In this document: positions 4,971 through 58,576 of the stretch, one piece after another
How positions within the stretch are numbered: the stretch's first letter is position 1
Layout of the letters: each line of letters starts with the position of its first letter
From: Spirochaetota bacterium
GTDB taxonomy: Bacteria; Spirochaetota; Spirochaetia; CADAEX01
Direction: 5' to 3'
Assembly (NCBI GenBank): GCA_009786125.1
Contig: WQTU01000139.1
Coordinates: forward strand, 72,483-136,482
DNA length: 64,000 nt
Notes under the pieces: model-generated
Seen by the model: the letters and a program-made list of their open reading frames with translations, nothing else
What the model was told of the DNA's origin: nothing
The model's database searches: none
Translations under genes and position numbers: made by a program

Positions 4971-5777
4971 TCAGTTTCTTGCCCTTTCAAGAAATTCCTT
5001 AGTGAAAAGAATATCCGGCTGCGGCCGCAGCGATGGCTGTGTTATTGTTATTTCTGTTCGTTCAAAAACTCTTCTGCCTGCAATATCCCGAAAAACAAGA
5101 TGGTCAATTATAGTAATACTGGGCGGAAAAGTTCCGTCCGCTCTTGCACTGCTGCCTGGAAGCCAACTGTTTCCTACTTGCTGATAACTGGGAATTGCTG
5201 TTGTTCTCAAAAGCTGCCCGGAAAGACTAAAATCCTTTCTTTTTCTTACAAGATTGTTTTCACATATCCAAAGACGCACTTTTGGAAAAGATACTCTGTC
5301 ATGCCGCGCCCGAAGATCCAGAACCGTGCAATTAAATCTGCCGAGCATTTCTCTTCTTACAGAAACAACATTGTAATCTTCATAATAACTTGATTTATAA
5401 AAATCTGAATTGCGCGCACTGGAATTTTGGAAACGCTCTCTGGCGCTTGTAAGAGTATAGCCGCCGCTTACCGGATCAAAAAGCCATAAGTTATCTCCGC
5501 TTCTAAAATATCCCTTTCCTCTGTCTCTAAGGGGTTCCAATATTAAAATAGTAAACTGATCTCTTCTGTCGCGTCTGAATACTGTGGCAACAGTAGTTGA
5601 AACAGACCCTCCTGGATCCACTCTTCTGATTGTATACTCCGCAGAAAGATCATGATCATTAAAACTAAGCAGAGTATCTACTTTTCTTAAAAGATTTCTA
5701 TATTCTTCAAAAGATTGCCCGTAAGCCGACAAAGTAAATAATAAAAACCCTACAACACAAATATATTTAACAAACAT
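4971..5777 (-). CDS. Outer membrane lipoprotein-sorting (LolA-like) protein
   Basis: Start set at internal ATG 5777 (MFVKYICVVGFLLFTLSAYGQS signal peptide) which overlaps the upstream stop as TGATG; repeated beta-strand segments such as RYFRSGDNLWLFDPVSGG... fit the LolA-like sorting-protein family. Confidence 0.7.
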   Translation of the reverse strand: MFVKYICVVGFLLFTLSAYGQSFEEYRNLLRKVDTLLSFNDHDLSAEYTIRRVDPGGSVSTTVATVFRRDRRDQFTILILEPLRDRGKGYFRSGDNLWLFDPVSGGYTLTSARERFQNSSARNSDFYKSSYYEDYNVVSVRREMLGRFNCTVLDLRARHDRVSFPKVRLWICENNLVRKRKDFSLSGQLLRTTAIPSYQQVGNSWLPGSSARADGTFPPSITIIDHLVFRDIAGRRVFERTEITITQPSLRPQPDILFTKEFLERARN

Positions 5778-7066
5778 CAAGTCCCCTTTCCTAAAGCCTG
5801 AACAGGCGGTAAATTTGACGCTTTTGCAGCAGGACCCCATGCAGCAAGCACAACCGCAAAAAGCATAAAAATAGTATTAAAAAATACTACTTTTGGATCT
5901 ATAAAAAAATTAAGCCTTCCGCTCTCGGTAAATAATCCGGCAGCAGAAAAAGCGCTTAAATCTACAAGACTAACAATAATGCTAAGAGTTATAACCCCTA
6001 ATACAAATCCGCCTAAAGAAGCAATAATGGCAAGAGCTGCTGCCTCTGTCAAAAAAAGAAACTTAACCTGTTTTTTTTGCATTCCCATTGCTCTCATGGT
6101 GCCTATTTCTCTGGTTCGCTCATAAACAAGAACTCTGTATGTATTTAAAATACCTATCATAACAATAATAACAAAAACAACTAGGAAAAAATATATTCCT
6201 GCAAGAAAAGCATTAAGAATATTTCTTATTTCTGCAAGCTGTGCATCAATAGGAACAACCGCTATGGTTTCTACTTCAGCGCCCGAGTTTCTTGCATCAC
6301 GAAAACCAGACTCATTATAAATTCTTGGAAAAACAGGAAAGCTTTTCTCCAGGGTTAGTCTAATTCTTTCGGCAAGCCTTTCTGTGTTAACCCCCGCATT
6401 TACATATAACGCTATGTCTGTAACAAAACCAGGATTATTAATAAGTTTATTCAAATCTTCAATTCTCATGTATGATGCATATCCAAAAATGCTTGTTTCA
6501 TCAAAAATACCGCGGATAATTTTTGTTGCAGTATTGATCTGCTGACCTATTGTTATATAAAATATTACATCATCCCCTACTCTGGCACCAATAATTTCAG
6601 CCGCAGTCCTGCTTATTAAAATTCCTCCGTTACCGCTTTCGCCAAGCATTGAGTCATAGCTTCCTTCGACAAAGGACAGATTTTTGAATATTTCTCTTTC
6701 TGCCTCAAAATCTATTCCAATAGCTCTTCTTTGTATTATAGAATTACCGGCAAAAAATATTCTGGCTTCCCTTCCCCAATAAACACTTCTCTTTGTTATT
6801 GCTCTTAACGGGAACCTTGCTTCTTTTAGTTTTTCGATTATTTCATCTGCATTGCTTATTCCAAAATCCCTTCCTGTAAAACTAACTAAAGCTATATGCC
6901 CTGAAAAATAACGCGCTGCCTTTGTTCTAATTGTTTCAAGAGCGCCAAAAGCCAAACCAGATAATATTGTAATCAAACTAAATCCCAAAAGTATTGCAAT
7001 AGCCATAAGAGCATATCTTTTTCGCCTCAAAAAGAGATTTCGCAAAGCAAGATATATTATTGTCAT
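5777..7066 (-). CDS. ABC transporter permease, FtsX/LolCE/MacB type
   Basis: N-terminal TM, large periplasmic domain, C-terminal GILNTYRVLVYERTREIGTMRAMGMQKKQVKFLFLTEAAALAIIASLGGFVLG FtsX core. Confidence 0.9.
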   Translation of the reverse strand: MTIIYLALRNLFLRRKRYALMAIAILLGFSLITILSGLAFGALETIRTKAARYFSGHIALVSFTGRDFGISNADEIIEKLKEARFPLRAITKRSVYWGREARIFFAGNSIIQRRAIGIDFEAEREIFKNLSFVEGSYDSMLGESGNGGILISRTAAEIIGARVGDDVIFYITIGQQINTATKIIRGIFDETSIFGYASYMRIEDLNKLINNPGFVTDIALYVNAGVNTERLAERIRLTLEKSFPVFPRIYNESGFRDARNSGAEVETIAVVPIDAQLAEIRNILNAFLAGIYFFLVVFVIIVMIGILNTYRVLVYERTREIGTMRAMGMQKKQVKFLFLTEAAALAIIASLGGFVLGVITLSIIVSLVDLSAFSAAGLFTESGRLNFFIDPKVVFFNTIFMLFAVVLAAWGPAAKASNLPPVQALGKGT

Positions 7067-7072
7067 AAAAAG

Positions 7073-8527
7073 CTACTCTTTTCCCATAACAGATACTGGA
7101 TTAATATGCATGGCAACAGATACTGGATAAATCCATGCCAAAGAAGCAATAACAAAGGCCATAATAATATTAATAAATACACCAAATAATGTTATGGTCG
7201 GCTCTATTACATTTCCTCCAAATAAATTAATAAACAAATCATTTTTAATAACGATGCCTTTCGCAGATACAATAAGACAAATTATTATCCCAAGTACAAC
7301 ACCCAAAAAAGAGGCTATTACAGTAAGTAACATTGACTCTGTTATAAACAGTTTTCTTATAAAAGCTTTTCCTGCTCCTATACCGCGCATTGTTCCTATC
7401 TCCGCGCTTCTTTCAAGCACAGATATAACCAGAGCATTCATAATCACAAGAATTGCCCCTATCATAATAAATACCATTCCTGCATAAAACAGATACTGGA
7501 GTGCAAACACAGTCTGCGCGCTTAATCCTGCTGCCTGCCGCCAATTTAATATTCTTACATCCCAGCCTTGGTCCCGAGCCTCTCTTCTCAGAGAATTTAA
7601 CAGCGCTCTCTGACTTCCGTCAGTACGAAAAAGCACAAAACTCCATGCCGCAGCATTAGGCATGACAACTGTTCTTCCCTCGTCTGTAATCTCTGATAAC
7701 AATTTCTCAATGCTTTCAAGAGTAAAACCACCTTCTTCTTGTGCAGTTACATCTTCGCCAAATAAAAAAAGATCACTGATATCAAAAAAATCATCGCTGC
7801 TTTGTTCGGGTTTTCCGTTGCTGATTAAAACATCCCCCATCGTGTAATTTGCAATACGTCTTACAGAATCCGGATCTGTCAAAACAATACGGTCTAGTAC
7901 CTGCGTAGTTCCAACATAACTATGTATTCCAGCCAAAAAACCTCTTACAATTCTAAAAGAACCATCAGAAAACATACTTAATTGAAGATCATCGCCTATT
8001 TCAAGCGAGCGATCTATTCTCTCTTCAATCATGGAAGCAATTCTTCTGTTAAGAAATACTCCGCCATTTCTCAGAGAAGATATATCGCCTTTTTCTATAA
8101 TAATTTCAGAACATACAGAAAAATAGGTATTATAATCAACACCAAAAAGAACAGCCGGTGTTCGCCTCCCGTCTACCTCTACAAATGCAACAGCAGATAC
8201 GATTGGGGTCCATTCTGATACATGTTCAATAGAAGAAAAAACATCTACCATAGAAGAATAGCCGGGAATAGCCGGAATAGTTTCAAACCTGCTTACAATG
8301 GGAATTTCGTTTCCAAACAAGCCATGAATAATTCCGATATTTGCACCTATAACAGCATCTCCGGTTAGGCTTCTTACAAAAGAACTTTCGAGTCCTCTGT
8401 TAGTGCTTTCGAAAACAGCATTTACAAAAAACAGTATTGCTGATCCCAGCATAATTAACATTCCCAAAAGCAGGGTTTTTCGTGTATGCCTTAATAGATT
8501 TCTGATTGCCAGTTTAAAAATCAACAT
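7073..8527 (-). CDS. ABC transporter permease, FtsX/LolCE/MacB type
   Basis: VISVLERSAEIGTMRGIGAGKAFIRKLFITESMLLTVIASFLGVVLG FtsX core; same topology as the neighbouring permease. Confidence 0.9.
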   Translation of the reverse strand: MLIFKLAIRNLLRHTRKTLLLGMLIMLGSAILFFVNAVFESTNRGLESSFVRSLTGDAVIGANIGIIHGLFGNEIPIVSRFETIPAIPGYSSMVDVFSSIEHVSEWTPIVSAVAFVEVDGRRTPAVLFGVDYNTYFSVCSEIIIEKGDISSLRNGGVFLNRRIASMIEERIDRSLEIGDDLQLSMFSDGSFRIVRGFLAGIHSYVGTTQVLDRIVLTDPDSVRRIANYTMGDVLISNGKPEQSSDDFFDISDLFLFGEDVTAQEEGGFTLESIEKLLSEITDEGRTVVMPNAAAWSFVLFRTDGSQRALLNSLRREARDQGWDVRILNWRQAAGLSAQTVFALQYLFYAGMVFIMIGAILVIMNALVISVLERSAEIGTMRGIGAGKAFIRKLFITESMLLTVIASFLGVVLGIIICLIVSAKGIVIKNDLFINLFGGNVIEPTITLFGVFINIIMAFVIASLAWIYPVSVAMHINPVSVMGKE

Positions 8528-8582: not shown

Positions 8583-9662
8583 CTAAATACTGCGATATAG
8601 TTCTGTATACTCTTTAATCATATTTTCAATAGAATATTTTTCTGATTGTTTTTGTGCAGCCGCTGCAATCCATTTTATATTGTTCCGCACAAAATCAATA
8701 CTTTGTTTAATTTCAAACGCCCACTTTTCGGGGGTTTCAATTTCTTTTACTAATTTTACAGCCGGATTATCTTGCCCCAGCACTTCTTTTAAGCCGTCAA
8801 CCTCGGAAGCAATTATAAATATTCCGGTAGACATTCCCTCTACTGCAACCAGCCCAAAACCTTCCCAAAGAGACGGAATAAGCTGAATATCTGCTTCGTG
8901 TAAGCGTCTTTCTATTTGATCCGATCTCCCGGGCAAATAAACTTTTTTCTCCAAGCCATTTTCTTTTATTAATTTTTCTAAAACTCCTCGCTCTGCCCCT
9001 TCTCCTACAATCGTATACGATTCAATTTCGTCTTTAATAAAAGATATTGCTTTTATTGAAGTTTTAAAATTTTTCTTTTTTGTTAAGGTTCCTATGGAAA
9101 TAATTTTGGGTTTTGCAAAGCCGCAGCGCTCTTTGGGTGTGTATAACTTTGCTCCATTATTAACAACTACCAGCCTGCTGTGGAGTTTTTTACTAAGCCA
9201 TTTTTCCAACGAAAGCTCGACCCCTTTGCTTATACAGCATATTTTTTTATATCTGCTGTAAAAAAAATGTTCGATATATTTAAAGCATGGTATGGATCTG
9301 CGCTTATTGGATGTATTGTGCTCGGTAAAAAGCAAGGTCACATTTTTTAAGAACAATACAGCGATTGGAGTATAAAAAAGAGGATATGTTAAATGTACAT
9401 GTATAATTATTTTTTGATATGTTTTTAATCTTGCTTTGATAAATTTACGCAGCCTGAATATCGTTAGCGGATTCCTATCTCCTGTCAAAAGAGAGCTTTC
9501 ATTGCTATGCAGCTTTATATTTAAATGAGAGAACTTGTTAAAGTAAACAACTTCCGAATCAAAGCCGTCTAGCTTTATTCTTTGCCCCAGCTCTCTGACC
9601 AAAACTTCTGCTCCCCCGCAAACCGGAGAAGATATGACTTGCAAGATTAATTTTTTTTGCAT
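8583..9662 (-). CDS. Glycosyltransferase family 4
   Basis: VISSPVCGGAEVLVRELGQRI; SIGTLTKKKNFKTSIKA; LIPSLWEGFGLVAVEGMSTG (E-x7-E). Confidence 0.9.
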   Translation of the reverse strand: MQKKLILQVISSPVCGGAEVLVRELGQRIKLDGFDSEVVYFNKFSHLNIKLHSNESSLLTGDRNPLTIFRLRKFIKARLKTYQKIIIHVHLTYPLFYTPIAVLFLKNVTLLFTEHNTSNKRRSIPCFKYIEHFFYSRYKKICCISKGVELSLEKWLSKKLHSRLVVVNNGAKLYTPKERCGFAKPKIISIGTLTKKKNFKTSIKAISFIKDEIESYTIVGEGAERGVLEKLIKENGLEKKVYLPGRSDQIERRLHEADIQLIPSLWEGFGLVAVEGMSTGIFIIASEVDGLKEVLGQDNPAVKLVKEIETPEKWAFEIKQSIDFVRNNIKWIAAAAQKQSEKYSIENMIKEYTELYRSI

Positions 9663-9719: not shown

Positions 9720-12404
9720 CTATTCTTCAATAGATACCATGCTCCAGTTTGCCGGGTCAAAGATATTGGTGTGTACATGCATCCAATGATTAGGGTTAAT
9801 ATTAAATAAATATTCCGAATGTCGTCTCAAATTCGCTAATCTTGATGTTGTAATGATTACCCCATCTTCCTTGTCAGCTTCGAGCAATCTTCCTGTCCAT
9901 GGATTTATCGGGTTTTCAACAATGTTCTCAAGCGCTATAAGCGGTACATCGGCATGAGTCATAAATGAATCATTAACAGATAAAGGGCCGCGTGAATCAA
10001 AGTCCTTTACCATAAGGAGCGCTGTAACAGCCTCAAGATATTCTCTATTTGACAAAACAACATCCGCATTTTCAGGAAATAAGCGGCCACCGTTGTAGCC
10101 GTGATCCGAAACAATAATAATTCTTGTATTATCATACACCTCGTTTTCTTTTAGAAAGTCAAACCATTTTCCCAGCAGTAAAAGAGCAGCAATATTAGCA
10201 TGATAGCTGGCTTCGTTGGCAAATCGACCGCTTCCTCTATATGTTATTCTGTTTGCCGGAGTATAATCAGGAGCCTGCAAAAAGAAAGGACTATGAGTTA
10301 AATTACTTACTACCATTGTATAGGAATCAAACCTTTCTTCGCTTATCTTCGTAACATAAGGTAAAATCGCTAAAGCTATATAAAATCTTATATCAGGCTG
10401 CACGTTTTTCACCCACCATCCTGCACCATCATAAATAAGATTTCTGATTGGCAGCGGTGCAAATTTAAATATGGAAAACCTAATTAAGCGGGATTCTAGG
10501 GTTCTAGCTACATTTTCTGCCTTAGTAAAATTTTCATTATTCGATAGCCACAGATCGTCATATTTTCTCTCAATGCTTGTTATATTTAGTTTATGCGAGT
10601 TATTAAAAGTACTTGTGTCTACACCTTCTATACGAAAATGCGGATTAACCAGCGTTACATTAAATTCATGATCAAGAAAAATTCTGGGCAACAAGAAACT
10701 CGCTTCGATTTGTTTGTCTCTTAGCGAAACATCTTTTCTGCGCTGCATTTCAAGCGGTGTATATTCATACCCGCCAAGTAAAGCAGGCATCCCAAAAATA
10801 GTGAATGGTCCGAAAGCAACACTATTTTTATACCATGTAAAACCACTAAAAGAATAATGCAAGTGTGGTTTTTCATCAAAAATATAAGGAACAAATCCGC
10901 TTACTGCTCTATCAAGCACTAAAACCAAAACATTTCTCCCTGTTTTTGAAAATCGAAAAACCGGCTCATCTATTCCTCCGCTCCTTTTCTCTGTTTTCGC
11001 AAATTGCACTTGAAATGATTTAGATTCCCGATATACTTTAGCAACATTTATTGCGCCTAATAACACACATGCACAAACCGCAACTGTTAAGACAGATACC
11101 ATTATTTTTCTAAACCGCTGAATAAGTAATGGTATAAAAATAGCGATAATTGTTATAACGAGCAAGTTCAATAAAATCAATACTTTGCCCGAACTAACGC
11201 CATCAGAAAAGTAAAACGACAATGTCAAATGACCGTAGTTCCCGGAAAAAACAAAGGTGTTAACCAAGGCAATAACTGCAAACACAGCCATTGCTTTTGC
11301 CATTTTTGTGCTTTTAGATAACATCCAATAAATACAAAGCGGCGCTACAAAGAAAATCCCAAGAGATGACAATGCCGTATTAAGCATAAAAGAAAAAGGG
11401 CTTCCAAAAGTTTCAATAAATCCAAGAGTAAATGATGAAATTAATGAAGAAGGAATTACCACTCCCGCAAGTAAAAATAAAATAGCTGTTGACAATAAAA
11501 ATATGCCAGTCTCTTTGGCAGGCTCTTTATTATAGCTTGCGCATAACTGAGCGAAAAGACGTGTACGAAGTATTAATCCTTTAACTTTTTTAATAATCAG
11601 CGGGCACAAGAACAAGAAAAAAGGAATACATGTAAGAACAAGAGCAAGATTAATGCGTATTCCTATCCAGCCCCTGTGAAAAAACAACAAGAAAATATTT
11701 AAAAGCAAAACAAAAACCGAAACCAAAATCGGTATTAGCTGCTTTGAAAATTTTGTTTTTTGAATAAAATTCTTCGCAAGCGAAAATAAATTATTGCATA
11801 TCCAATAAAGTACCATGCCAGATGGAGAGTTATAGAGCAAAGCTAGAAATATTACGGCAATACCGTATACTTGAATCTTATCTCCGCGAGGAAACCCCTT
11901 AGTATATATTGCTCCAGAAACAACATTGATAAGTACCATCAAAATAGGAAGAAGATTTATACCCCAAAGAAACCTATCCGGAGCACTTAAGTCATTTATA
12001 AACAAAAAAGGTTGCCCGGTTAATAATTCTAGATTGCTTAGAAAATGCCAGGCAGCTATAAAAAATGGGATTTGGATAAATAGACTAAAGCTGTTACACA
12101 GGGCATGTATAGGATGATAATTATGCTGCCGGTATAAAGCCGACAGCATCATATATTGTTTATCGCCTTTAAAAACAGCTTTTATATTGTCCTTCATTCC
12201 CTTCATTTGCTTTTGTTTTTCTCGCTCTGCCCGCTGCTGTTTTTCAGCCAGCAGATAAAGCGGCAGAAGAATAAAACTTATTGCAACACTTACGCCGATA
12301 ATCGAAAATCCATGATTTCTAAAAATACGAAAAAAAAGTACATAGCATGCTTCTATTATTTGCTCGACGGGGAATATTATCAGACTGTAGAGAAAATTAA
12401 GCAT
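9720..12404 (-). CDS. YidC/Oxa1-domain protein fused to a sulfatase/phosphotransferase-like (alkaline-phosphatase fold) ectodomain
   Basis: N-term NHGFSIIGVSVAISFILLPLYLLAEKQQRAEREKQKQMKGMKDNIKAVFKGDKQYMMLSALYRQHNYHP...LFIQIPFFIAAWHFLSN...GQPFLFINDLSAPDRF aligns by eye to the YidC core; polytopic middle; C-term NVLVLVLDRAVS, GPFTIFGMPALLGG, NTRIIIVSDHGYNGG, HVHTNIFDPANWSM. Confidence 0.85.
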   Translation of the reverse strand: MLNFLYSLIIFPVEQIIEACYVLFFRIFRNHGFSIIGVSVAISFILLPLYLLAEKQQRAEREKQKQMKGMKDNIKAVFKGDKQYMMLSALYRQHNYHPIHALCNSFSLFIQIPFFIAAWHFLSNLELLTGQPFLFINDLSAPDRFLWGINLLPILMVLINVVSGAIYTKGFPRGDKIQVYGIAVIFLALLYNSPSGMVLYWICNNLFSLAKNFIQKTKFSKQLIPILVSVFVLLLNIFLLFFHRGWIGIRINLALVLTCIPFFLFLCPLIIKKVKGLILRTRLFAQLCASYNKEPAKETGIFLLSTAILFLLAGVVIPSSLISSFTLGFIETFGSPFSFMLNTALSSLGIFFVAPLCIYWMLSKSTKMAKAMAVFAVIALVNTFVFSGNYGHLTLSFYFSDGVSSGKVLILLNLLVITIIAIFIPLLIQRFRKIMVSVLTVAVCACVLLGAINVAKVYRESKSFQVQFAKTEKRSGGIDEPVFRFSKTGRNVLVLVLDRAVSGFVPYIFDEKPHLHYSFSGFTWYKNSVAFGPFTIFGMPALLGGYEYTPLEMQRRKDVSLRDKQIEASFLLPRIFLDHEFNVTLVNPHFRIEGVDTSTFNNSHKLNITSIERKYDDLWLSNNENFTKAENVARTLESRLIRFSIFKFAPLPIRNLIYDGAGWWVKNVQPDIRFYIALAILPYVTKISEERFDSYTMVVSNLTHSPFFLQAPDYTPANRITYRGSGRFANEASYHANIAALLLLGKWFDFLKENEVYDNTRIIIVSDHGYNGGRLFPENADVVLSNREYLEAVTALLMVKDFDSRGPLSVNDSFMTHADVPLIALENIVENPINPWTGRLLEADKEDGVIITTSRLANLRRHSEYLFNINPNHWMHVHTNIFDPANWSMVSIEE

Positions 12405-12427: not shown

Positions 12428-15115
12428 TTAATATTCAACATTTACCATACTCCAATTAGCAGGATCAAAAATATTGGTGTGGACATGCATCCATTCATCT
12501 GATCCAATATTAAGGCGATTACCGCGCTGGTGCCTTGGATTCCAAGTAATTGAACCGCTGACAAAAACGCCGCCACATTTCTGCTTAATAAGTTCTTTGC
12601 CTGTAAACGGATTTATCAAATCCTGAATAAGTCCTTCTGTTAATAGATGCGGAACATCCGCATTTGTCATAAAAGTATTATCTGTTCTTAAATCAAAGTC
12701 ATCATAAAAGTCTTTTAGCATCAATAATACATTATAATCTTCTAGAGGCATTCCATTAGGCAGGACAATATTGCCAGAAAATCGGCTGTTGGCGCCGCGA
12801 CCTCCATGGTCAGATACAATAATAATCCTGGTGTTATCATAAACACCGTTTTCTTTCAAAAAATCAAACCACCTTGCAAGCAATATAAAAGACGCTATAT
12901 TAACATGGTAATGCTTTTCATGAGCAAATGGACCTGCTCCTTTATTGGTAATAGTATTTACCGGGATATAATATGGCGCTTCAAAAAAAGCCGGAGAATG
13001 CGGCAGTTTGTTAATAAACATAACAGCGCTATTTATATTTTCATCTGTTATTTCAGTAATATAAGGAAGAACATAAAGGGCGGCAAAATTATTTATTGTG
13101 GCATGAGAATAATTCGCAGAATCCAGAAGTGTATCAAACCCTGAAAGAAATCTGCCTCTATCATATATTAATTTATGCAATATTAAAGGAGAAACTCTAA
13201 AGAAGGAAAAACGTATTAGTTTATCATAAAGTATTCTATAATAGTCTTTGAAATTAAAATCCCTATTGCGGCTCAGATAATAACTAGTAAAACGCTCAAG
13301 ATTCCTTCCGGCCCTTATATTATCAAACCTATTATAAAGCGAAAAATCCATCCATTGCTGATTATATACAGCTACCTTAAAACCAGCTTCTGCCATAATT
13401 CTAGGTAAAACCTGATATGATTCAAGAAATTTATCCACCCAGAACTCATCAGTGCGTTTTTGTATTTCAAGCGGAGTATAATAATAACCGCCAAAAATAC
13501 CCGGCATCCCCTGAATAGTAGATGGACCATGTGTTACTGTATTTGGAAAAAATGTAAACCCCTTAAAAGAATTACGTAATTCCGGTTTTTCTTCAAAGAT
13601 ATAAGGTACATAGAAGGACACAGCGCTGTCCAGAACAATGAGCAAAACATTTTTTCCAGTCCTGCTAAATGTATATTCTTTCCCAAGTGTAAAAGAAGAT
13701 CCTCTCTCTTTATCTTGAGACCCTTGTATAGCCTGGTATTCAATTTTGATATTAACAATATTTACTACTCCTAAACATAACAAAGCAATAACCACAATAC
13801 TTTGTATGGACAACAACACCTTTTTTCTCTTCCACATCAAAAGCAGTAACATTGCTACACAGACAATTAGCATAGCAATAATATTTATTATCTTCTGGTT
13901 GCTGGGGCTCTCTCTAAAATTAAGAAAATGCAAGTCTGGCGTCATAGCGCCATAGTTTCCGATAAATACGAATGCATTTATCAAAAATACCCCTAAAGTG
14001 AATGTTAAAATAATTGCTAACAATATTTTTGCCCGTCTATCAAATAAAAAATAAATACAAAGTAACCAAAGTAAAATACCAAGTGACTGGGTAAGAATTA
14101 TGCCTATATAAGGAAGTGGAGAGGAAAACGGCTGCAAAAATGAAAATTGCTCAACATTGGAAGCTATGAGACCCGAAGGGATTACAAGCCCGATTAACAA
14201 AAACAGACCCATTAAAGATAAAAAGAAGGTCTTTCCTGGCAACTCAAGCGCTGTATTTTTTATATCTATTTTTCTTTTTATAATTCTCCAGATTTTTTTC
14301 CAAACAGGTATCAGTAAAAACATTGCAAGAAACACAATAACAAAAAAAAGTTCTAAAAGAGGCCTATCTATTGAGTCTCTGCGGAAAAACATTTGCCAAA
14401 CAACCAAGCTTACACCAAACAGCAAAATCAATACACTTATTATTTGTTTTGCATTTTTTGTTTTTAACAATATATTTTTAATCAAATTGTAGATGTTATT
14501 GCACGTCCAGTACAATACCAAAGCAGCAGGAGAATTATAAAGTAAAATAAAGAAAATTATTGATATGCTATAAACTTGTACTTTGTCTTTTATTGCTAAA
14601 CCATTTGTATATATTGCTCCCGAAATAACATTTATAAGTATCATTAAAATTGGAAGGAGATTTATACCCCCCCATAAAAACCCGTCAGGAGCGCTTAAAT
14701 CATTGATAAACCAAAAAGCAGTTCCATTCAGTCTTCCCAAATTACTTAGAAAATGCCAAGCAGCAATAAAAAATGGAATTTGAATAAATAGCTCAAGACT
14801 GCTTCGCAGGGCATATACAGGATGATAATTATTCTGCCGATACAAAGTTGACAACATCATAAACCGTTTATCGCCCTTAAAAACAGCTTTTATGTTGTCC
14901 CGCATCCCCTTCATTTGTTTCTGCTTTTCACGCTCTGCCTGCTGTTGTTTTTCTGCCATAAGTGAAAGCGGTAGGATAAGAGTACTTACTATTATACTTA
15001 TAGCAATAATGGAAAAGCCGTGGTTTCGCAAAATATGAAAAACAAAAACATGAGAAAGTTGTATTATTTGTTCAACTGGAAATATAACAAGAGTATAAAG
15101 AAAAGTAAGCATCAA
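12428..15115 (-). CDS. YidC/Oxa1-sulfatase-like fusion, paralog of the adjacent gene
   Basis: Same architecture: NHGFSIIAISIIVSTLILPLSLMAEKQQQ..., FIQIPFFIAAWHFLSNLGRLNGTAFWFINDLSAPDGF; NVLLIVLDSAVS, GPSTIQGMPGIFGGYYYTP, NTRIIIVSDHGGRG, WMHVHTNIFDPANWSMVNVEY. Confidence 0.85.
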   Translation of the reverse strand: MMLTFLYTLVIFPVEQIIQLSHVFVFHILRNHGFSIIAISIIVSTLILPLSLMAEKQQQAEREKQKQMKGMRDNIKAVFKGDKRFMMLSTLYRQNNYHPVYALRSSLELFIQIPFFIAAWHFLSNLGRLNGTAFWFINDLSAPDGFLWGGINLLPILMILINVISGAIYTNGLAIKDKVQVYSISIIFFILLYNSPAALVLYWTCNNIYNLIKNILLKTKNAKQIISVLILLFGVSLVVWQMFFRRDSIDRPLLELFFVIVFLAMFLLIPVWKKIWRIIKRKIDIKNTALELPGKTFFLSLMGLFLLIGLVIPSGLIASNVEQFSFLQPFSSPLPYIGIILTQSLGILLWLLCIYFLFDRRAKILLAIILTFTLGVFLINAFVFIGNYGAMTPDLHFLNFRESPSNQKIINIIAMLIVCVAMLLLLMWKRKKVLLSIQSIVVIALLCLGVVNIVNIKIEYQAIQGSQDKERGSSFTLGKEYTFSRTGKNVLLIVLDSAVSFYVPYIFEEKPELRNSFKGFTFFPNTVTHGPSTIQGMPGIFGGYYYTPLEIQKRTDEFWVDKFLESYQVLPRIMAEAGFKVAVYNQQWMDFSLYNRFDNIRAGRNLERFTSYYLSRNRDFNFKDYYRILYDKLIRFSFFRVSPLILHKLIYDRGRFLSGFDTLLDSANYSHATINNFAALYVLPYITEITDENINSAVMFINKLPHSPAFFEAPYYIPVNTITNKGAGPFAHEKHYHVNIASFILLARWFDFLKENGVYDNTRIIIVSDHGGRGANSRFSGNIVLPNGMPLEDYNVLLMLKDFYDDFDLRTDNTFMTNADVPHLLTEGLIQDLINPFTGKELIKQKCGGVFVSGSITWNPRHQRGNRLNIGSDEWMHVHTNIFDPANWSMVNVEY

Positions 15116-15846
15116 AAATCCCTTATATAAAATTTTTCATATACATCAATATCATTTTGGTTATCACATTCAAACCACTGTTCTGTTGTTTCGATTGTCT
15201 CAATATAGTTTCCTAAAGTTATCAGATGTTGTAAAAGAGTTGTCATATCCAGTTTTTCAACAGACTTAGGCATAGGTAACTTAATGGCTTGCTCTATTTT
15301 TTTCCATCCTGATGGCTCAAATTTTAACAGCCCCATATATTGACCCTGAACCTCTTCTTTAACAGATGGCTTTTTACCTATCTCAAAAAGTCTCTTATTC
15401 TGCATCTTGAATGTTTCCAAATCGTTCAACGGGTCATCAAAACGTTTGCTCCACAAATCCCAAAACCCGGTATAGTATGTTATGGAAAACTCCTGGTCTG
15501 ATTGCATTAGTTTTTTTACTGCTGCCGGAGAGAAAACAATATCTGAATAACTTATTACACAAGGCTCGCGATGCAGCCACTCCGCTGCTTTGGTAAGAGA
15601 AACAAACATATTTGTTGTTTCCCATTCCGCATTGTGGAAATAATGCACACCATGCGCCTGAATAGCTTCACTTTTGTAGCCGGTAACAATGCCTATGTCG
15701 CCAAGAGCAAAACCTGCTTTCTGCAAACTTTCGAGGCAGTGGTCCAAAAGTGTTTTGCCCCATAGTTTCATCATGCACTTGGGAAGGTTTGCGGTTCCTT
15801 CCTTCATTCTGCTGCCTCTGCCAGCAGCAAGTATTATCGCTTTCAT
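15112..15846 (-). CDS. NTP transferase, candidate CTP:phosphoglutamine cytidylyltransferase (Cj1416-like)
   Basis: MKAIILAAGRGSRMKEGTANLPKCMMKLWGKTLLDHCLESL pyrophosphorylase motif; function inferred from synteny with the two upstream genes. Overlaps the next gene by 4 nt. Confidence 0.75.
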   Translation of the reverse strand: MKAIILAAGRGSRMKEGTANLPKCMMKLWGKTLLDHCLESLQKAGFALGDIGIVTGYKSEAIQAHGVHYFHNAEWETTNMFVSLTKAAEWLHREPCVISYSDIVFSPAAVKKLMQSDQEFSITYYTGFWDLWSKRFDDPLNDLETFKMQNKRLFEIGKKPSVKEEVQGQYMGLLKFEPSGWKKIEQAIKLPMPKSVEKLDMTTLLQHLITLGNYIETIETTEQWFECDNQNDIDVYEKFYIRDF

Positions 15847-16454
15847 TAAGATTCTCCCTGTACTCCAGCGGCAAACAAGCCGCGAACAAGCTCAATATCT
15901 TCCATCGCAAAGGGCGCTTCCCGCTCCGGATGCCACATTATCCCTGCTATGGGCAGCTCTCTGTGCTTAATATATTCAACTTCGCCATCTGCGGAGATGG
16001 CAAGCACCAGCAAGTCTTCGGGTATTACATCCGGCGCAAAGTTGTGATAGCTGTTAACGTTGCGTTTTATATCCAGATTATGCCGTATAGCCACATGCCC
16101 TTCAATTTTGCGCAAGGTCCCACCAAAATAGAGGGCAATGGATTGAGTACCCCGACACACACCCAGTAACGGCACATTTTTCTTTATGGCATACGAAATC
16201 AAAAACTCGTCGATGGTATCGCGTTCCGGGGCAGAGCCTCCGTAAGCCTCAGGAGTGTTACCTCCGCTTAGCAGAATACCATCCGGCTGCATGGACTCAA
16301 GCATTTTCGCAAGCATGGGTTCATGATTAAAAACAGGCATTCCAATGCAGCCGGCCTCCCACAAAAACTCTGCCCACCTTTGGTCAAGAGCATCCCGGCG
16401 CTCCTGATAGCTGGTAATCACATCTACTCGCTGGCTTATAAGTACGCGTTTCAT
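15846..16454 (-). CDS. Class I glutamine amidotransferase / gamma-glutamyl hydrolase, candidate gamma-glutamyl-CDP-amidate hydrolase (Cj1417-like)
   Basis: ILLSGGNTPEAYGG, PLLGVCRGTQSIALYFGG (nucleophile Cys), IMWHPERE (His/Glu). Confidence 0.78.
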   Translation of the reverse strand: MKRVLISQRVDVITSYQERRDALDQRWAEFLWEAGCIGMPVFNHEPMLAKMLESMQPDGILLSGGNTPEAYGGSAPERDTIDEFLISYAIKKNVPLLGVCRGTQSIALYFGGTLRKIEGHVAIRHNLDIKRNVNSYHNFAPDVIPEDLLVLAISADGEVEYIKHRELPIAGIMWHPEREAPFAMEDIELVRGLFAAGVQGES

Positions 16455-18778
16455 TTAAGAACTTCTATTTTTCTGTTCGCGCAGTCTATCCGCAGCCTTT
16501 TAGCAGAGGATAGTCTGTCGAAAACCTTTTCGCCTACGCCGATTGCAGCAGGAATGCCCAGCTCCCCTGCCCTTATAGCCATATGCGAATTCGCGCCGCC
16601 ATATGCAGTAATAAAACCAAGTATCTTGCAGGAAAAAATCCAGTCGAAACCAGGGTCAGCTGCTCTTATTAGCAATATTTTCCCCGAAATATTATCCCTG
16701 CAAAGCCCTTCTGCACAAACTTCGCCAGCAGTCTCGCCAAGTGTAATATAATTAGGTATGCTAGTCGGCATATGAAAAGCATAAATGTCATCGGGATTCA
16801 GGATCACCGGCGGCATGGTTAAACTCAGTGTTTCCGCATAACGTCTTTTTCCTTCTGTAATGGAATCAGCAAGCGCGGTTTTCATGTCCGAGGAGGAAGA
16901 ATAGAGCTTGTCTATCAAAAAATAATCAAGGTATGCCATATCTTCGCGGCTAAATCCATATGATTCGCCTAACTTTGCCAGCAATTCCAATACATGAGAA
17001 AGGCTTTTGGTAAATACAAATTTGGAATATTCTCTTCCTTCAATACCTGCTTTTAGAAATTTAAAAAGAGCCAATACATCGCCCTGCAGTCCCTGGTTTT
17101 TCATTTCGCTTTGAATCGCAGCATATTGCTCCAGAGAAAGCATAAAAGGTTCCCGCTCCTGGTCTGGCATATCAATATTTTGCCCGCCAAGATACATTTC
17201 CGGCGCCATGTCGTAGCGCTTGGAAGTAATATCGTAAGTTCCGGGGCGCAAGTGTCCGTATTTGCGAAGAAAAGCAGCCTGCGAAAGTTCCTGCCAGTCC
17301 GCAGACATCTCGGAGCTTATGGTTTTAAGACTTCCCATATAATTTTGGTAATCCCGCTCCGACAAAATACCAATAGCAACAAGCGACTTTAAAAGCTGCA
17401 CTGCTATAAATCCTGCCCGGGCAAGCCCTGCAAATGGCAGGGTTCCGTAGCGCGTACAGTCCGCCATTAACCAATATATTTTGGATATATCATCCATATC
17501 ACTGGAAATAATTATTTCCCGCCTCTTGTCCAAAATATCTATTTTTTCGGTGTCAATAATCCACAAACCAGTACTTACATTTATTATATTGTTTGTTAGA
17601 CCGCACAACGAATTTCGCAAAGTATCGATATCCGCCTGAGTAAAGCCATGTGCAGATAAAATCTTGAGCCGCTGAGGCAAATCAAAAGTGTTGCAAGAAA
17701 AAACAATCTCGAACTCCACTTTGTCGTGCTTGTCCGGGTCGCTCGCAAGACTATCCAGATAATAATTTGCAAGTTTTTCGCTTAGCTTGTCATCTATATC
17801 TTTTGGGATAAACGAATTAAAACTAATCCTGACATCGATGTAGGGCAGCCCGCAAAATTCAACCATAAGCGGAAAGCTGCGAAGGTTTTTATAGCCGTAT
17901 TCATTGCGCTGATACGCCCATGTACCATCAGTTATAAGCCTGCGGTATAATGATGAAGCCAGCGGCTTGGGGCGGATGCCAATCATCTCTGCCGGGTTCC
18001 AGTCAGGCATAACGCCGTAAATAGCCCGGCTTCCCTGAGCATAAGGATGCTTTCCCATGCCTATGCTTATAAAGCTGTGGGCGCGCGCCAAAGCTTCGCC
18101 CTGCTTTTCAATACCCGCAATCTCTTGCTTCAAAACCAACGGGCGCGCCTGTAAAATATATAAAGTGCCGTCTTGTGTAAATGCAAATTCAATATCAATA
18201 TTATTTTTACCAAAGAGCTGCATCAATTCCCCGGCAGCCTCTGCAAGAGAGTCCAGGCGGCTGTCCCCACAGCGTTTCCCGTGGAATATATAACAGGTAG
18301 ACGAGTCTGCCATTTGTCCGGAAGTTATAGACTCCGAAGAGCCGCTGCTGCTGTCATAGTTAATAACGAAATAATTCCCGCCTGTGTTGGGGTCTACAGT
18401 AAACAACACCCCGGACATAGCAATATTTTGCAGCATGGGTTGCACTAAAATCTGATTCCCCGGGTTGTTATCTTTATAAGAACCACACACTTTTTTTGCC
18501 GCATCTATTACGTCGGCAGGAGCAACATTCAAGATCGAAAGAAAATGCCCTGCAAGAGACTCATTTTCACTATCTTCATTAAGAGCAGAAGAGCGCACAA
18601 TCAACGCACCGGAATTTCCGATCGCGCCAGACAACTCTGCGAACACGCGCTCTTTTATTGCGTTTGGGTTAGCAAGCAGCTCGCCTGTTGTAAATGTAAC
18701 TTGCGGCAGTATTTTGCTTTTTGTAACACAAGAGGCCATCGCATTTAAAGTATTTGCTTTGGTCGAAAATTTAAGCAT
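16451..18778 (-). CDS. PEP-synthase/PPDK-like ATP-grasp with phosphohistidine domain, candidate L-glutamine kinase (Cj1418-like)
   Basis: ALIVRSSALNEDSENESLAGHFLSILNV (PPDK_N); VLFTVDPNTGGNYFVINYDSSSGSSESITSG; C-term TAYGGANSHMAIRAGELGIPAAIG mobile His domain. Confidence 0.8.
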   Translation of the reverse strand: MLKFSTKANTLNAMASCVTKSKILPQVTFTTGELLANPNAIKERVFAELSGAIGNSGALIVRSSALNEDSENESLAGHFLSILNVAPADVIDAAKKVCGSYKDNNPGNQILVQPMLQNIAMSGVLFTVDPNTGGNYFVINYDSSSGSSESITSGQMADSSTCYIFHGKRCGDSRLDSLAEAAGELMQLFGKNNIDIEFAFTQDGTLYILQARPLVLKQEIAGIEKQGEALARAHSFISIGMGKHPYAQGSRAIYGVMPDWNPAEMIGIRPKPLASSLYRRLITDGTWAYQRNEYGYKNLRSFPLMVEFCGLPYIDVRISFNSFIPKDIDDKLSEKLANYYLDSLASDPDKHDKVEFEIVFSCNTFDLPQRLKILSAHGFTQADIDTLRNSLCGLTNNIINVSTGLWIIDTEKIDILDKRREIIISSDMDDISKIYWLMADCTRYGTLPFAGLARAGFIAVQLLKSLVAIGILSERDYQNYMGSLKTISSEMSADWQELSQAAFLRKYGHLRPGTYDITSKRYDMAPEMYLGGQNIDMPDQEREPFMLSLEQYAAIQSEMKNQGLQGDVLALFKFLKAGIEGREYSKFVFTKSLSHVLELLAKLGESYGFSREDMAYLDYFLIDKLYSSSSDMKTALADSITEGKRRYAETLSLTMPPVILNPDDIYAFHMPTSIPNYITLGETAGEVCAEGLCRDNISGKILLIRAADPGFDWIFSCKILGFITAYGGANSHMAIRAGELGIPAAIGVGEKVFDRLSSAKRLRIDCANRKIEVLK

Positions 18779-20021
18779 TTTGCACCGTCAATCCTTCCAC
18801 TGTCTCGATCATAAAATTAGCCACCCGCTTTCCTGCTTCGCCAGGATATTGCCATGCCTGTGTCTTGACTTCTTTTATGGCTGATTCCATAGCGTTACTT
18901 TCAGAAACCTTTGAGATCTGGCTCGGCAAGTCATTCAACAAATCCGGCTTTAACTCTATACCGGTTTTTTTCAAGTTGCGAAAAGTCCATATTTCTTCCT
19001 GATCCTCATAAATCTGAAACGCATCACGAGATCGCCAGTCAAGTTTTTCAGATACATAAAAAACCGGCTTATTTCGTAAAAACATATAATCCAATATTAT
19101 GCCTGAAAAATCAGAAATCATAACATCTGCCTTTTTAAGTGAATATATATTATCACGTTCAAAGTCCCACTCCAAATTCGCATTGCTGGCATAACGCGAA
19201 GAAAGGCGGTCTATTATCTCTTTTTCGACAAGCAATGATTGCGGATGAGGTCTCACGATAATCCGCCACCCTGTTGCCACTAATGGGTCCAGCAGTTTCT
19301 CCCCAAATCTGGAAAGCAAAGCAACTTCGCTCCAGGATGGCGAAACCAGAACTGTAAAAATGCTATTTTCTTCTGCGGGAATCTGTTCAATTTTTTTAAC
19401 AAATTCATCCAAATAAGAGCAGCCTACGGTAACAATTTGTTTTTCCGGCAAATTGCGCACTTTCTCAAGTTTTCGAATGTGTTCTTCCTGATAATCCCGC
19501 CCATTTACCAAAAGCGAATCAAAATAATCCATGCCAAATAATTCACATTGTGCAAATTCCGAAGGAGTATGAAAAAGGTGGCTGTAATGTTTAACCATTT
19601 TAGAGCGCTTCCACTGATACACATCAAGCCCCGGCGTCGTTGCAAGAACAAAATCAGCAGAAAGAAAATTGAGCCTCGCAAAAGCTTTGTTGCCCCCGCC
19701 CAGGCACTCAGCCTTTACATGCTTAAACCCGGCATCAAAAACAGGGTCGTCTTTGGATGCGGTTAAATAGAGAAGGTCTATTCCTCGGCTTTCAAATTCT
19801 TCCACAACAGGCTTAAAGAGCGTCCAATAACGCTTGTCTTCTGCATAAATAACAAACTTGTTTTTTGATCCGTGTTTTGCCCTGCCGCCTGTAAAAAAGG
19901 ATTTTATCTTTATATACATAGCCTGAAATGTAAAATAAACCGCGGCTGCTATGCCAATAAGTATGGAAAAAATAGCGCTCCCTGTTCCGGGATCAATGTA
20001 AAGAAAAGGTAAAGATATCAT
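18771..20021 (-). CDS. CDP-glycerol glycerophosphotransferase family (TagB/TagF-like)
   Basis: N-terminal TM LPFLYIDPGTGSAIFSILIGIAAAVYF; VVRPHPQSL-like IIVRPHPQS; SLKKADVMISDFSGIILDYMFLRNKPVFYV. Confidence 0.78.
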   Translation of the reverse strand: MISLPFLYIDPGTGSAIFSILIGIAAAVYFTFQAMYIKIKSFFTGGRAKHGSKNKFVIYAEDKRYWTLFKPVVEEFESRGIDLLYLTASKDDPVFDAGFKHVKAECLGGGNKAFARLNFLSADFVLATTPGLDVYQWKRSKMVKHYSHLFHTPSEFAQCELFGMDYFDSLLVNGRDYQEEHIRKLEKVRNLPEKQIVTVGCSYLDEFVKKIEQIPAEENSIFTVLVSPSWSEVALLSRFGEKLLDPLVATGWRIIVRPHPQSLLVEKEIIDRLSSRYASNANLEWDFERDNIYSLKKADVMISDFSGIILDYMFLRNKPVFYVSEKLDWRSRDAFQIYEDQEEIWTFRNLKKTGIELKPDLLNDLPSQISKVSESNAMESAIKEVKTQAWQYPGEAGKRVANFMIETVEGLTVQNA

Positions 20022-20119: not shown

Positions 20120-21526
20120 CTAAAACCCAAATTTTAATAGGTCTAAAAATCCCAAAATGATATGATTAACTCTGTCTGAAGGCCGTATTGCTGCAACAGG
20201 TCCAAGAAATAGCATCGTAGCACACGCAACTATTATATACCACTTATTTCTATTAATAACAGGAGCCATCTTGGCAACTACAGTTAGTACAGTATTGTTT
20301 TTTACATAGATCAAATAGAAAATCAACATAAACTGGATCAGGATAATCATTATCATCCATCTGCCAAAATCAAAAAACATGAAAAAAACCGGAATATGAT
20401 AAACAAAAAGTAAAACAGGAAGAGTGAAAAATAATTTCATATATCGTTTTTGTTCAACGCGAAAGCAACATATCCAGAAGTATGCAAACAATACAATTAA
20501 AGGCAAGTTAATAAGCACACTTATTGTTCCCGAGAATTTCAAGAAACCCCAACCTGCCATCAAACCTCGCCAATCTGATAAATGATCTCCAAATCCTGCG
20601 AAGAATATCATGTGTATAAATTCGTATGCATAGTTAAGATCTGTTTTTGTTTTTATATATTCTACAAAAGCAGCAGCATCCGGAAACATAAAAGTCTGTT
20701 TGGCAAACAAAAGGTACGAAATAAAGCTTGAGACAACAACGACAAAACTAACAAAAAACAGGGCGATATATGATTTTTTTTCAGGTAACTTGTAAAATAA
20801 CAATATAAAAATAAATGGGATATAAAAAAACACCAGAATAAGATGTATTGATATGGTAAACAAGGCAAAAACCGGAATAAGCCACTTTAAGTATTGGTTA
20901 TCAATAATTGCTACCAAAATCAACATAAAAAGCAATGCGTATATTTCAGACCTGCCAAAATTATTTGGAGTAAAATATGCAGCAGGAGAAGCAAAACATG
21001 TTAGCAACAGCAAGGATAAAAACAACACAAAAGGTTTTATATTGTCTTTATTGCTTTTAATAAAATAGCCTAGGTAGACAGAAATCAAAAATATCATAAG
21101 TATCAAAGAGCAGAAAATAAAGTGCCATACAAAGTATCTTGAAATAAACTCCCCGTTTGAGAGAAAATCTACTACAGTTCCTAAAAAACCCCTTGATGAA
21201 ACTCCATAACGATATGACAAAAGAAAAGTACTTGCAGTAAGAGAGCACAAATTATCGATTTTAGGCGCCAGTGCAAGTAGTTGTATAAAAAGAAAGGAAA
21301 ATATACCAACTTCATATTTGTTTATACTATTCTTATACAGGATTACTAAATACATTATGCAAGCTGTAAATATATAAAGAGCAGGTATTTTGATTAAATT
21401 TGTGCGAAAGAAAACAAGGCAAAATAAATCGCAAAAAACCAAAAAAAATAAAACAACCATTAGTCGAAAACGAGTTTTATTAGAATAAAGAGTTTTATCT
21501 TCGTTACTTACTGCTTTAAGCATCAT
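20120..21526 (-). CDS. Polytopic membrane protein (candidate GT-C/Gtr-type glycosyltransferase), paralog A
   Basis: ~12 hydrophobic segments; near-identical long stretches to the adjacent ORF (e.g. SFLLSYRYGVSSRGFLGTVVDFLSNGEFIS). Confidence 0.7.
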   Translation of the reverse strand: MMLKAVSNEDKTLYSNKTRFRLMVVLFFLVFCDLFCLVFFRTNLIKIPALYIFTACIMYLVILYKNSINKYEVGIFSFLFIQLLALAPKIDNLCSLTASTFLLSYRYGVSSRGFLGTVVDFLSNGEFISRYFVWHFIFCSLILMIFLISVYLGYFIKSNKDNIKPFVLFLSLLLLTCFASPAAYFTPNNFGRSEIYALLFMLILVAIIDNQYLKWLIPVFALFTISIHLILVFFYIPFIFILLFYKLPEKKSYIALFFVSFVVVVSSFISYLLFAKQTFMFPDAAAFVEYIKTKTDLNYAYEFIHMIFFAGFGDHLSDWRGLMAGWGFLKFSGTISVLINLPLIVLFAYFWICCFRVEQKRYMKLFFTLPVLLFVYHIPVFFMFFDFGRWMIMIILIQFMLIFYLIYVKNNTVLTVVAKMAPVINRNKWYIIVACATMLFLGPVAAIRPSDRVNHIILGFLDLLKFGF

Positions 21527-21548
21527 ATTTTTCTCTGATAATTAAAAT

Positions 21549-22940
21549 TTAAAAAACAAACTTTAACAAGTCTAAAAAACCTTCTGCGATATGCATAATC
21601 CTGTGAGAAGGCCCTTTTATTAGAACAGGTCCAAGAAATAGCATTATGGCACATGCAACTATTATATACCACCAGTTTTTATTAATAATAGGAACCATTC
21701 TACCTGCTACAATTAATACTGTATTGTTCTTTACATAGATTAAATAAAAAATCAACACAAACTGAATCAAGATAATCATTACCATCCATCTGGCAAAATC
21801 ATAAAATAGGAAAAAAACCGGTATATGATAAATAAAAAGTAAAACAGGAAGAACAAAAAAGATTTTCATGTATCGCTGCTTTTCTTGTAAAAAACAACTT
21901 ATCCAAAAGTATGCAAACAATACAATTAAAGGCAAGTTAATAAGCACACTTAGATTTCCTTTAAACATCAAAGACACTCTGTCCTTCCAGCCAAGCAAAT
22001 GTTCATGAAACTCTGCAAAAAATATCATATGTATATCGAATAGCAAAAACTCAATATCTGTTTTTGTTTTTAAATACTCCAGAAAAGCAACAGCATCCGG
22101 AAACACAAAAGTCTGCTTGGCAAACAAGAGGTACAAAATAAAGCTTGAGACAACAACCACAAAGCTAACAAAAAACAGGGCTATATATGATTTTTTTTCG
22201 GGCAACTTGTAAAACAGCAAGATAAAAATAAAAGGGATATAAAAAAATACCAAAATAAGATGTGTTGATATTGTAAACAAAGCAAGAAGCGGTATAAACC
22301 ACTTAAGGTATTGGTTGTCAATAACTGCTACTAAAAGCAGCATATAAATCAATGCATACATCTCAGATCTGCCGAAATTTTGCGCGGTAAGATATGTCGA
22401 AGGAGAAGCAAAACATGTTAGCAGCAACAAGGATAAAAATAACACAAAAGGTTTTATATCATCTTTGCTATTTTTGATAAGATAGCCCAAGTAAACAGAA
22501 ATCAAAAAAATTAGAAACACAGTTGAGCAAAAAATAAAGTGCCACACAAAATATTTTGAGATAAACTCCCCGTTTGAGAGAAAATCTACTACAGTTCCTA
22601 AAAAACCCCTTGATGAAACTCCATAACGATATGATAAAAGAAAAGAATTTGCAACAAGTGAATTCAAATTATCGAATTTCGGCGCCATTGCAAGCAGTTG
22701 TACAAAAAGAAAAGAAAATATACCAACTTCATATTTGTTTATACTGTTTTTATACAGAATTATTAAATACATTATGCAGGCTGTAAAAATATAAAGAGCA
22801 GGTATTTTAATTAAATTTGTACGAAAGAAAACAAGGCAAAATAAATCGCATAAAACTAGAAAAAACAAAACTGCCATTAGTCGAAAACGAGTCTTGCCAG
22901 AGTAAAGAGTTTTATCTTCGGTGCTTACTGCTTCAAGCAT
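21549..22940 (-). CDS. Polytopic membrane protein (candidate GT-C/Gtr-type glycosyltransferase), paralog B
   Basis: Start reassigned to ATG 22940 (MLEAVSTEDKT), overlapping the upstream stop as TAATG; strongly similar to paralog A. Confidence 0.7.
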   Translation of the reverse strand: MLEAVSTEDKTLYSGKTRFRLMAVLFFLVLCDLFCLVFFRTNLIKIPALYIFTACIMYLIILYKNSINKYEVGIFSFLFVQLLAMAPKFDNLNSLVANSFLLSYRYGVSSRGFLGTVVDFLSNGEFISKYFVWHFIFCSTVFLIFLISVYLGYLIKNSKDDIKPFVLFLSLLLLTCFASPSTYLTAQNFGRSEMYALIYMLLLVAVIDNQYLKWFIPLLALFTISTHLILVFFYIPFIFILLFYKLPEKKSYIALFFVSFVVVVSSFILYLLFAKQTFVFPDAVAFLEYLKTKTDIEFLLFDIHMIFFAEFHEHLLGWKDRVSLMFKGNLSVLINLPLIVLFAYFWISCFLQEKQRYMKIFFVLPVLLFIYHIPVFFLFYDFARWMVMIILIQFVLIFYLIYVKNNTVLIVAGRMVPIINKNWWYIIVACAIMLFLGPVLIKGPSHRIMHIAEGFLDLLKFVF

Positions 22941-58542: not shown

Positions 58543-58576
58543 TTTTATTACTGTTTGTGACATTTTATTCTCTTTT
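58543..58576. repeat. 34-bp perfect direct repeat, copy 2 (decoy wzt start MSQTVIKFDLGINL*)
   Basis: TTTTATTACTGTTTGTGACATTTTATTCTCTTTT, identical to 56848-56881; offset 1695 bp. Confidence 0.97.

Follow-up and report, generated by a model that had tools for sequence, protein, structure and literature searches.

In Campylobacter jejuni, a glutamine kinase, a phosphoglutamine cytidylyltransferase and a gamma-glutamyl-CDP-amidate hydrolase make CDP-amidate, and Cj1415 is the CDP-amidate 3'-kinase. These enzymes belong to the O-methyl phosphoramidate (MeOPN) pathway encoded by Cj1415-Cj1422; the reaction scheme for Cj1415-1418 used here draws on a review (PMC6429109) and on the enzyme work of Raushel. 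The Campylobacter genes were mapped earlier within that genus (PMC3907429), and a 2022 review describes the glutamine kinase as "C. jejuni-specific" (PMC9561416). Here we describe an operon with the same three CDP-amidate enzyme families in a spirochaete genome. The window analyzed is a 64,000-nucleotide stretch of contig WQTU01000139.1 (positions 72,483 to 136,482, forward strand; assembly GCA_009786125.1), whose minus strand carries, from 20021 to 12428, a series of head-to-tail overlapping genes for a TagF-like protein, a kinase, a class I amidotransferase, a cytidylyltransferase and a protein in which YidC and sulfatase domains are fused (Table 1). Unlike the C. jejuni pathway, this genome is without a Cj1415-type 3'-kinase and the operon is without a linked methyltransferase, the TagF-like and YidC-sulfatase genes being present instead. 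Sequence comparisons and structural models lead us to predict, with a probability of roughly 0.62, that through the operon the spirochaete decorates a surface glycan or glycolipid with phosphoramidate (P-NH2) groups.

Other described systems resemble the remaining parts of the operon. The TagF-like protein shares with the wall teichoic acid enzymes TagF and TarL the GT-B fold and conserved His and Asp-x-Ser motifs, and a CDP-type donor is expected; it differs from them in its low identity (about 14% in the structural match), its predicted donor, CDP-amidate, and its N-terminal membrane motif. For the Type A flagellin glycan of Clostridioides difficile (cd0241-cd0244), a published proposal has CD0242 and CD0244 produce phosphothreonine and transfer it, with CDP-threonine as donor, by means of a LicC-like cytidylyltransferase and a TagF-like enzyme (PMC10714395). 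That system is like the window in that the proposed CDP donor carries a phospho-group other than an alditol phosphate, but the group there is phosphothreonine, the acceptor is flagellin, and the published model has neither a glutamine kinase nor a C26 hydrolase. The PntC phosphonate-tailoring system of Treponema denticola (PMC6697681) has in common with the window a MobA/LicC-type cytidylyltransferase, a spirochaete host and surface attachment, but it deals in C-P chemistry whereas P-N chemistry is predicted here, and Ppm is absent from the window's genome.

An earlier sequence-only reading of this DNA had named the first four genes, all of which we recover at the same positions, overlapping on the minus strand, and had overlooked two YidC-sulfatase genes of the same operon. 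Its proposal that the kinase, amidotransferase and cytidylyltransferase (the trio) constitute CDP-amidate synthesis is well supported by the family score of the kinase, the best model of the amidotransferase and the linkage of the genes. The kinase, with the Pfam domains PPDK_N and PEP-utilizers (phosphohistidine), scores 911 bits against NF004508 (cutoff 501), an uncharacterised NCBI family named only "hypothetical protein". NF045546, gamma-glutamyl-CDP-amidate hydrolase, is the best NCBIfam model for the amidotransferase at 119.6 bits (cutoff 250 bits), and the LicC/MobA-type cytidylyltransferase (Pfam NTP_transf_3), which shares the operon with the kinase, matches LicC (1jyk) best in the PDB and also PntC (6pd1). 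Because the LicC match is the best, and because PPDK_N and phosphohistidine domains are common to both enzyme types, the kinase might be read as a diverged dikinase, of the PEP synthase/PPDK-like or another type, whose partners serve ordinary phosphocholine-type or sugar metabolism. We consider this very improbable, since the kinase has no Pfam match to PEP-utilizers_C, the C-terminal PEP/pyruvate-binding barrel, scores at most 73 bits against PEP synthase models, and is linked to its partners across phyla, usually together with APS-kinase-like and methyltransferase genes as in Campylobacter. A PEP synthase/PPDK identity is therefore rejected on domain content. We also checked whether PEP synthases/PPDKs and choline cytidylyltransferases are the nearest relatives, an outcome that the sequence-only reading had named as contrary to its proposal, and found the kinase in a family of its own.

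Every residue that at least 95-98% of 84-89 homologues share is retained in the trio, among them the nucleotidyltransferase loop, the His732 loop of the kinase and the amidotransferase residues Cys100, His175 and Glu177, which argues that the set has not arisen by chance. The reading frames have no stops or frameshifts and their starts are coupled: the tagF-like and kinase genes overlap by 8 bases, the kinase and amidotransferase genes by 4, and the amidotransferase and cytidylyltransferase genes by 1, and the ATG of YidC-sulfatase copy 1 sits in the cytidylyltransferase stop (TGATG). GC content at third codon positions (GC3) is 39% for the TagF-like gene, 44% for the kinase, 50% for the hydrolase and 38% for the cytidylyltransferase, compared to 25-33% for surrounding genes. 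Taken together, the family assignments and linkage make it highly probable, short of proof, that the trio makes CDP-amidate. Variants of these enzymes occur elsewhere: the kinases of loci L024 and L025 have an N-terminal extension of ~230 aa resembling a degenerate nucleotidyltransferase domain, and at L029:652-3687 the kinase and the C26 hydrolase are naturally fused into one protein of 1011 aa. The L029 contig is filed as "Bacteriophage sp." and contains genes resembling bacterial housekeeping genes.

Occurrence outside Campylobacter, which the sequence-only reading presented as unusual, proves to be the rule, with at least 583 relatives of the kinase locus among at least 598 candidates in species genomes of many phyla; we found no description of the trio outside Campylobacter in the open literature consulted. 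We studied 89 loci, comprising the best 80 of the at least 583 together with plasmid, phage-collection and window loci, so that the set is biased to the closest relatives of the window kinase. The hydrolase gene is present in 85 of these loci, the cytidylyltransferase gene in 84, an APS-kinase-like (APSK) gene in 71 and a shared methyltransferase family in 66, with all of them in 64. When only loci with long flanks are counted, the methyltransferase is found in 44 of 48 APSK-bearing loci versus 0 of 10 APSK-less ones (Fisher p 2e-8, with no correction for phylogeny), and the window locus belongs to the class without either gene. No APS-kinase-type (Cj1415-like) 3'-kinase lies near the cassette or anywhere in the genome, which is 99% complete, and the window contains no homologue of the cassette-linked methyltransferase family. 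The sole APS-kinase hit in the genome, at 22 bits, looks to be Ffh, the SRP GTPase. A full MeOPN pathway is thus rejected on the absence of APS kinase, and the O-methyl phosphoramidate brought up by the sequence-only reading is not the predicted product; the missing 3'-kinase in the genome and the missing methyltransferase in the operon lead us to expect plain phosphoramidate.

Genes for flagellin or the flagellar hook protein lie no more than about 8 kb from the cassette in loci L031, L050, L062, L078, L083, L087, L091, L103 and L105 and in the Pseudomonas loci L047, L064, L066 and L067, suggesting that phosphoramidate may be carried on flagellin glycans in several groups. On the Agrobacterium vitis plasmid pRvVAT039a (L027), a LysE exporter gene and a CDP-alcohol phosphatidyltransferase gene come after the trio. 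Amino-acid genes are close by and glycan genes are not, and the product there may be a small molecule or lipid that is secreted.

The candidate for the transfer step is the TagF-like protein, which scores 21.4 bits against PF04464, below the gathering threshold (GA) of 22.1; its homologue in L132 scores 33.8, above GA. TagF (3l7j) is the top match of its AlphaFold2 (AF2) model (pLDDT 75.6) among 350,542 PDB chains (E 2e-10, TM about 0.5), and TarL-CDP-ribitol is also within the top ten. Since other GT-B proteins score close behind, the fold supports a CDP donor without proving it; a profile search of PDB sequences with the TagF-like alignment returned nothing, so that TagF emerged from the fold comparison alone. 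H151, R257-P-H259 and D304-x-S306 are invariant; for H151, H259, D304 and S306 this holds in 10 spirochaete homologues, and these four were equated with TagF residues by motif, not by structural superposition. The same block of genes (YidS-tagF-KIN-HYD-CYT) is present in the Spirochaetia locus L032, and TagF is linked to the same kinase independently in L032, L037, L039 and L024, weaker Glyphos-like families being found in other loci. The model and these linkages make the TagF-like enzyme a reasonably probable phosphoramidate transferase. The sequence-only reading had allowed for a phosphoramidate or glycerophosphoramidate-type decoration; plain phosphoramidate agrees with our analysis, glycerophosphoramidate finds no support, and the TagF-like gene more likely moves the phosphoramidate group itself. 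As a separate observation, a Treponema sp. locus (L044:12537-13034) encodes a short membrane protein whose YLDPST motif resembles the N-terminus of the TagF-like protein. It lies about 0.8 kb past a kinase-hydrolase-cytidylyltransferase set in which the kinase gene seems to have a broken frame at its start.

The order D ... T ... H ... DH is the metal/nucleophile pattern of the alkaline-phosphatase superfamily, to which LtaS and EptA belong. D496, T533, H706 and D769-H770 are near-invariant in the YidC-sulfatase proteins, which thus keep the catalytic pattern of these phosphotransferases. The same proteins fall in the YidC family but differ from YidC insertases in being fused to a sulfatase domain and in having Ser or Asn (Ser in copy 1) in place of the groove Arg. 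This position is Lys in YidC-TagF fusions, and the canonical YidC of the genome retains the Arg. Loss of the insertase arginine suggests that the YidC domain may have been repurposed.

The TagF-like gene is present in 12 of 60 near-relative genomes (that of the window included), and the kinase is absent from the other 11. Its homologues in these kinase-less relatives nearly always adjoin a YidC-sulfatase or YidC gene. At the corresponding locus of a sister species (G001, L136), the permease/ABC neighbours have kept their order at 61-91% identity (73-75% for the two FtsX-type permeases), and the next genes encode a sulfatase-type protein, a TagD-type cytidylyltransferase, a TagF-like protein (35%) and YidC. 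A further genome, G055 (L134), has the pair beside a LicC-like cytidylyltransferase-aminotransferase fusion, with phosphonopyruvate decarboxylase and PEP mutase genes about 7-8 kb from the pair on the same strand. Moreover, in the Oscillospiraceae loci L037 and L039 a single gene, immediately upstream of that for the kinase, combines YidC and TagF domains; in L037 a stand-alone sulfatase-type protein is encoded ahead of it. The fusion, the adjacency and the swap at the same locus together argue that these parts act together and that the donor-supply genes are exchangeable. We tentatively propose that a single membrane-linked machine of TagF-like, YidC-derived and periplasmic phosphotransferase domains might attach phosphoramidate, phosphonate or glycerophosphate to surface polymers, depending on the CDP-donor cassette at the locus, in spirochaetes and some Oscillospiraceae. 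What is new here is the TagF-like and YidC-sulfatase pair of spirochaetes, which also occurs where the trio is missing, next to a TagD-type cytidylyltransferase or a phosphonate pathway; no description of this link was found in the open literature consulted. A 289-aa protein with weak aminotransferase resemblance is encoded beside tagF in L132 (10781-11650) and its sister-genus counterparts, flanking permease genes. It was suspected to be a phosphonate transaminase, but the match is weak (34.6 bits vs 360.8) and Ppm is absent from the genomes that carry this gene, so it is not counted as evidence for phosphonates.

The existence of such pairs in relatives without the kinase, and the wealth of glycosyltransferases and other candidates in the window, would also fit a history in which the trio makes CDP-amidate for another transferase of the cluster, the TagF-like and YidC-sulfatase genes having come from an older glycerophosphate or phosphopolymer pathway. 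We judge this unlikely because the genes overlap, tagF has the raised GC3 of the trio, TagF is linked to the kinase independently in the loci listed above (weaker Glyphos-like families occurring elsewhere), and the window has no candidate of the sulfotransferase type described below.

Several points weigh against the assignment of the operon to phosphoramidate transfer. TagF-like homologues are common without the trio, and the neighbouring gene here may act on another donor. The TagD-like gene of L136 falls under the curated glycerol-3-phosphate cutoff, the association of the pair with phosphonate genes is seen in one genome (G055), and the match of YidC-sulfatase copy 2 to the sulfatase model is marginal (16 bits). 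Orthology of the trio to Cj1416-1418 is indirect, being drawn from families and linkage, and no Campylobacter locus is among the best 80 kinase loci kept from the species-genome scan. In addition, the hydrolase lies below the NF045546 cutoff; four relatives tested do so too (91-113 bits), and because two of these are from full-pathway loci (L076 and L093) the cutoff looks narrow.

We infer the following sequence of events for phosphoramidate attachment. The cytidylyltransferase would join the kinase product to CTP, giving gamma-glutamyl-CDP-amidate, from which the C26 enzyme would strip glutamate to leave CDP-amidate. Given that the 3'-kinase and a linked methyltransferase are missing, CDP-amidate itself may be the donor, and the TagF-like enzyme would pass the phosphoramidyl group to the acceptor with release of CMP, as TagF does with CDP-glycerol. 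The YidC-like part of the two YidC-sulfatase proteins probably presents the product or moves it across the inner membrane, and their Thr-nucleophile phosphotransferase part probably relays it on the periplasmic side; the pair would be a general phospho-headgroup machine with swappable donor-supply genes. The published C. difficile proposal that a TagF-like enzyme transfers phospho-amino acids from CDP (PMC10714395) offers a precedent for transfer of whole phosphoglutamine from gamma-glutamyl-CDP-amidate, in which case the C26 enzyme would work elsewhere or trim at a later stage, but the near-constant presence of the C26 gene (85 of 89 loci) and its overlap with its neighbours here fit hydrolysis ahead of transfer and leave this alternative improbable.

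A second type of transferase may operate in the APSK loci. An unannotated family (L061:6050-7372 and 35 relatives, in 32 of the 89 kinase loci) has a sulfotransferase fold in its model (pLDDT 82.7), with PAP-type sulfotransferases as best PDB matches (E 7e-6), and one member passes Pfam Sulfotransfer_3. As 3'-phospho-CDP-amidate resembles 3'-phosphoadenosine 5'-phosphosulfate (PAPS), these proteins are candidate transferases in APSK loci, for 3'-phospho-CDP-(methyl)phosphoramidate; were they to need the 3'-phospho donor, the APSK-less window would need a different, TagF-like transferase. Sulfotransferase-like genes are found in 34 of 71 APSK loci compared to 3 of 18 APSK-less loci (p 0.018, or 0.07 when the count is limited to full-flank loci), and Glyphos-like genes occur in both classes (p 0.26-0.29). 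As a result, a rule pairing APSK with sulfotransferase-like genes and its absence with TagF-like genes held in its first half and failed in its Glyphos-like half. The unmethylated, 3'-kinase-free branch could be a second route to P-N decoration beside one using a PAPS-like 3'-kinase product and sulfotransferase-fold enzymes, a suggestion that we make, jointly with that of the exchangeable machine, at somewhat less than even odds.

The assembly has no 16S gene. RpoB of the host, a gut bacterium, is 72% identical to that of a Treponema genome, 70% to that of a Spirochaetia genome and at most 58% to all others, identifying the host as a spirochaete. The kinase is confined to the window's genome among the 60 near relatives and is present in 5 of 299 genomes of the class. 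In a tree it falls in a clade made up mostly of Bacillota, where it groups (98) with a Defluviitaleaceae metagenome-assembled genome (L031) and Spirochaetia L032. This narrow distribution, the tree placement and the GC3 composition indicate that the glutamine-kinase cassette was probably acquired laterally. Rarity in the class and foreign composition might equally mark a non-functional or silent island, but intact frames, coupled starts and retention of every conserved residue make this a very remote prospect. A phage origin was rejected, the single phage-collection match (MT837632.1) having no phage genes and containing, by eye, trxB-, prs-, dnaC- and murC-like open reading frames.

Surface P-N bonds are treated in the open literature consulted as a Campylobacter peculiarity, and the number of kinase loci indicates that the capacity for them is common. 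The window adds a simpler branch in which the 3'-kinase step would be skipped, and it points to candidate transferases whose fold is known, so that the mode of phosphoramidate transfer and the spread of P-N glycans become testable questions. NF004508 gains a proposed function, and YidC domains a proposed repurposed role.

Table 1. Genes of the operon and of the adjoining minus-strand run (window positions)
Feature	Position	Strand	Basis or remark
TagF-like (Glyphos_transf) GT-B transferase, N-terminal YIDPGTGS membrane segment, 416 aa	18771..20021	-	Candidate phosphoramidate transferase; PF04464, AF2 fold, invariant residues
Glutamine kinase-like protein, ATP-grasp and phosphohistidine His732, 775 aa	16451..18778	-	NF004508; PPDK_N and PEP-utilizers
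Gamma-glutamyl-CDP-amidate hydrolase-like class I amidotransferase (C100, H175, E177), 202 aa	15846..16454	-	Peptidase_C26/GATase; NF045546
Phosphoglutamine cytidylyltransferase-like protein, MobA/LicC/PntC type, 244 aa	15112..15846	-	NTP_transf_3; PDB 1jyk, 6pd1
YidC/Oxa1 and alkaline-phosphatase-superfamily (sulfatase/LtaS/EptA type) domain, copy 1	12428..15112	-	PF02096, PF00884
YidC/Oxa1 and sulfatase-type domain, copy 2	9720..12404	-	47% identical to copy 1; sulfatase domain 16 bits, below cutoff
GT4 glycosyltransferase, last gene of the run	8583..9662	-	PF00534; 57-bp gap; membership of the unit uncertain
Two FtsX-type permease genes	5777..8527	-	Outside the pathway; mark the locus conserved with the sister species (L136 comparison)

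Positions 20120-22964 of the window encode a tandem pair of membrane paralogues of 468 and 471 aa; the first has no Pfam match. Four proteins with Schlafen AlbA_2 or DUF4062 together with HATPase_c_4 domains are scattered in the glycan cluster at 25141-26511, 34678-36150, 41144-42376 and 58575-60098.

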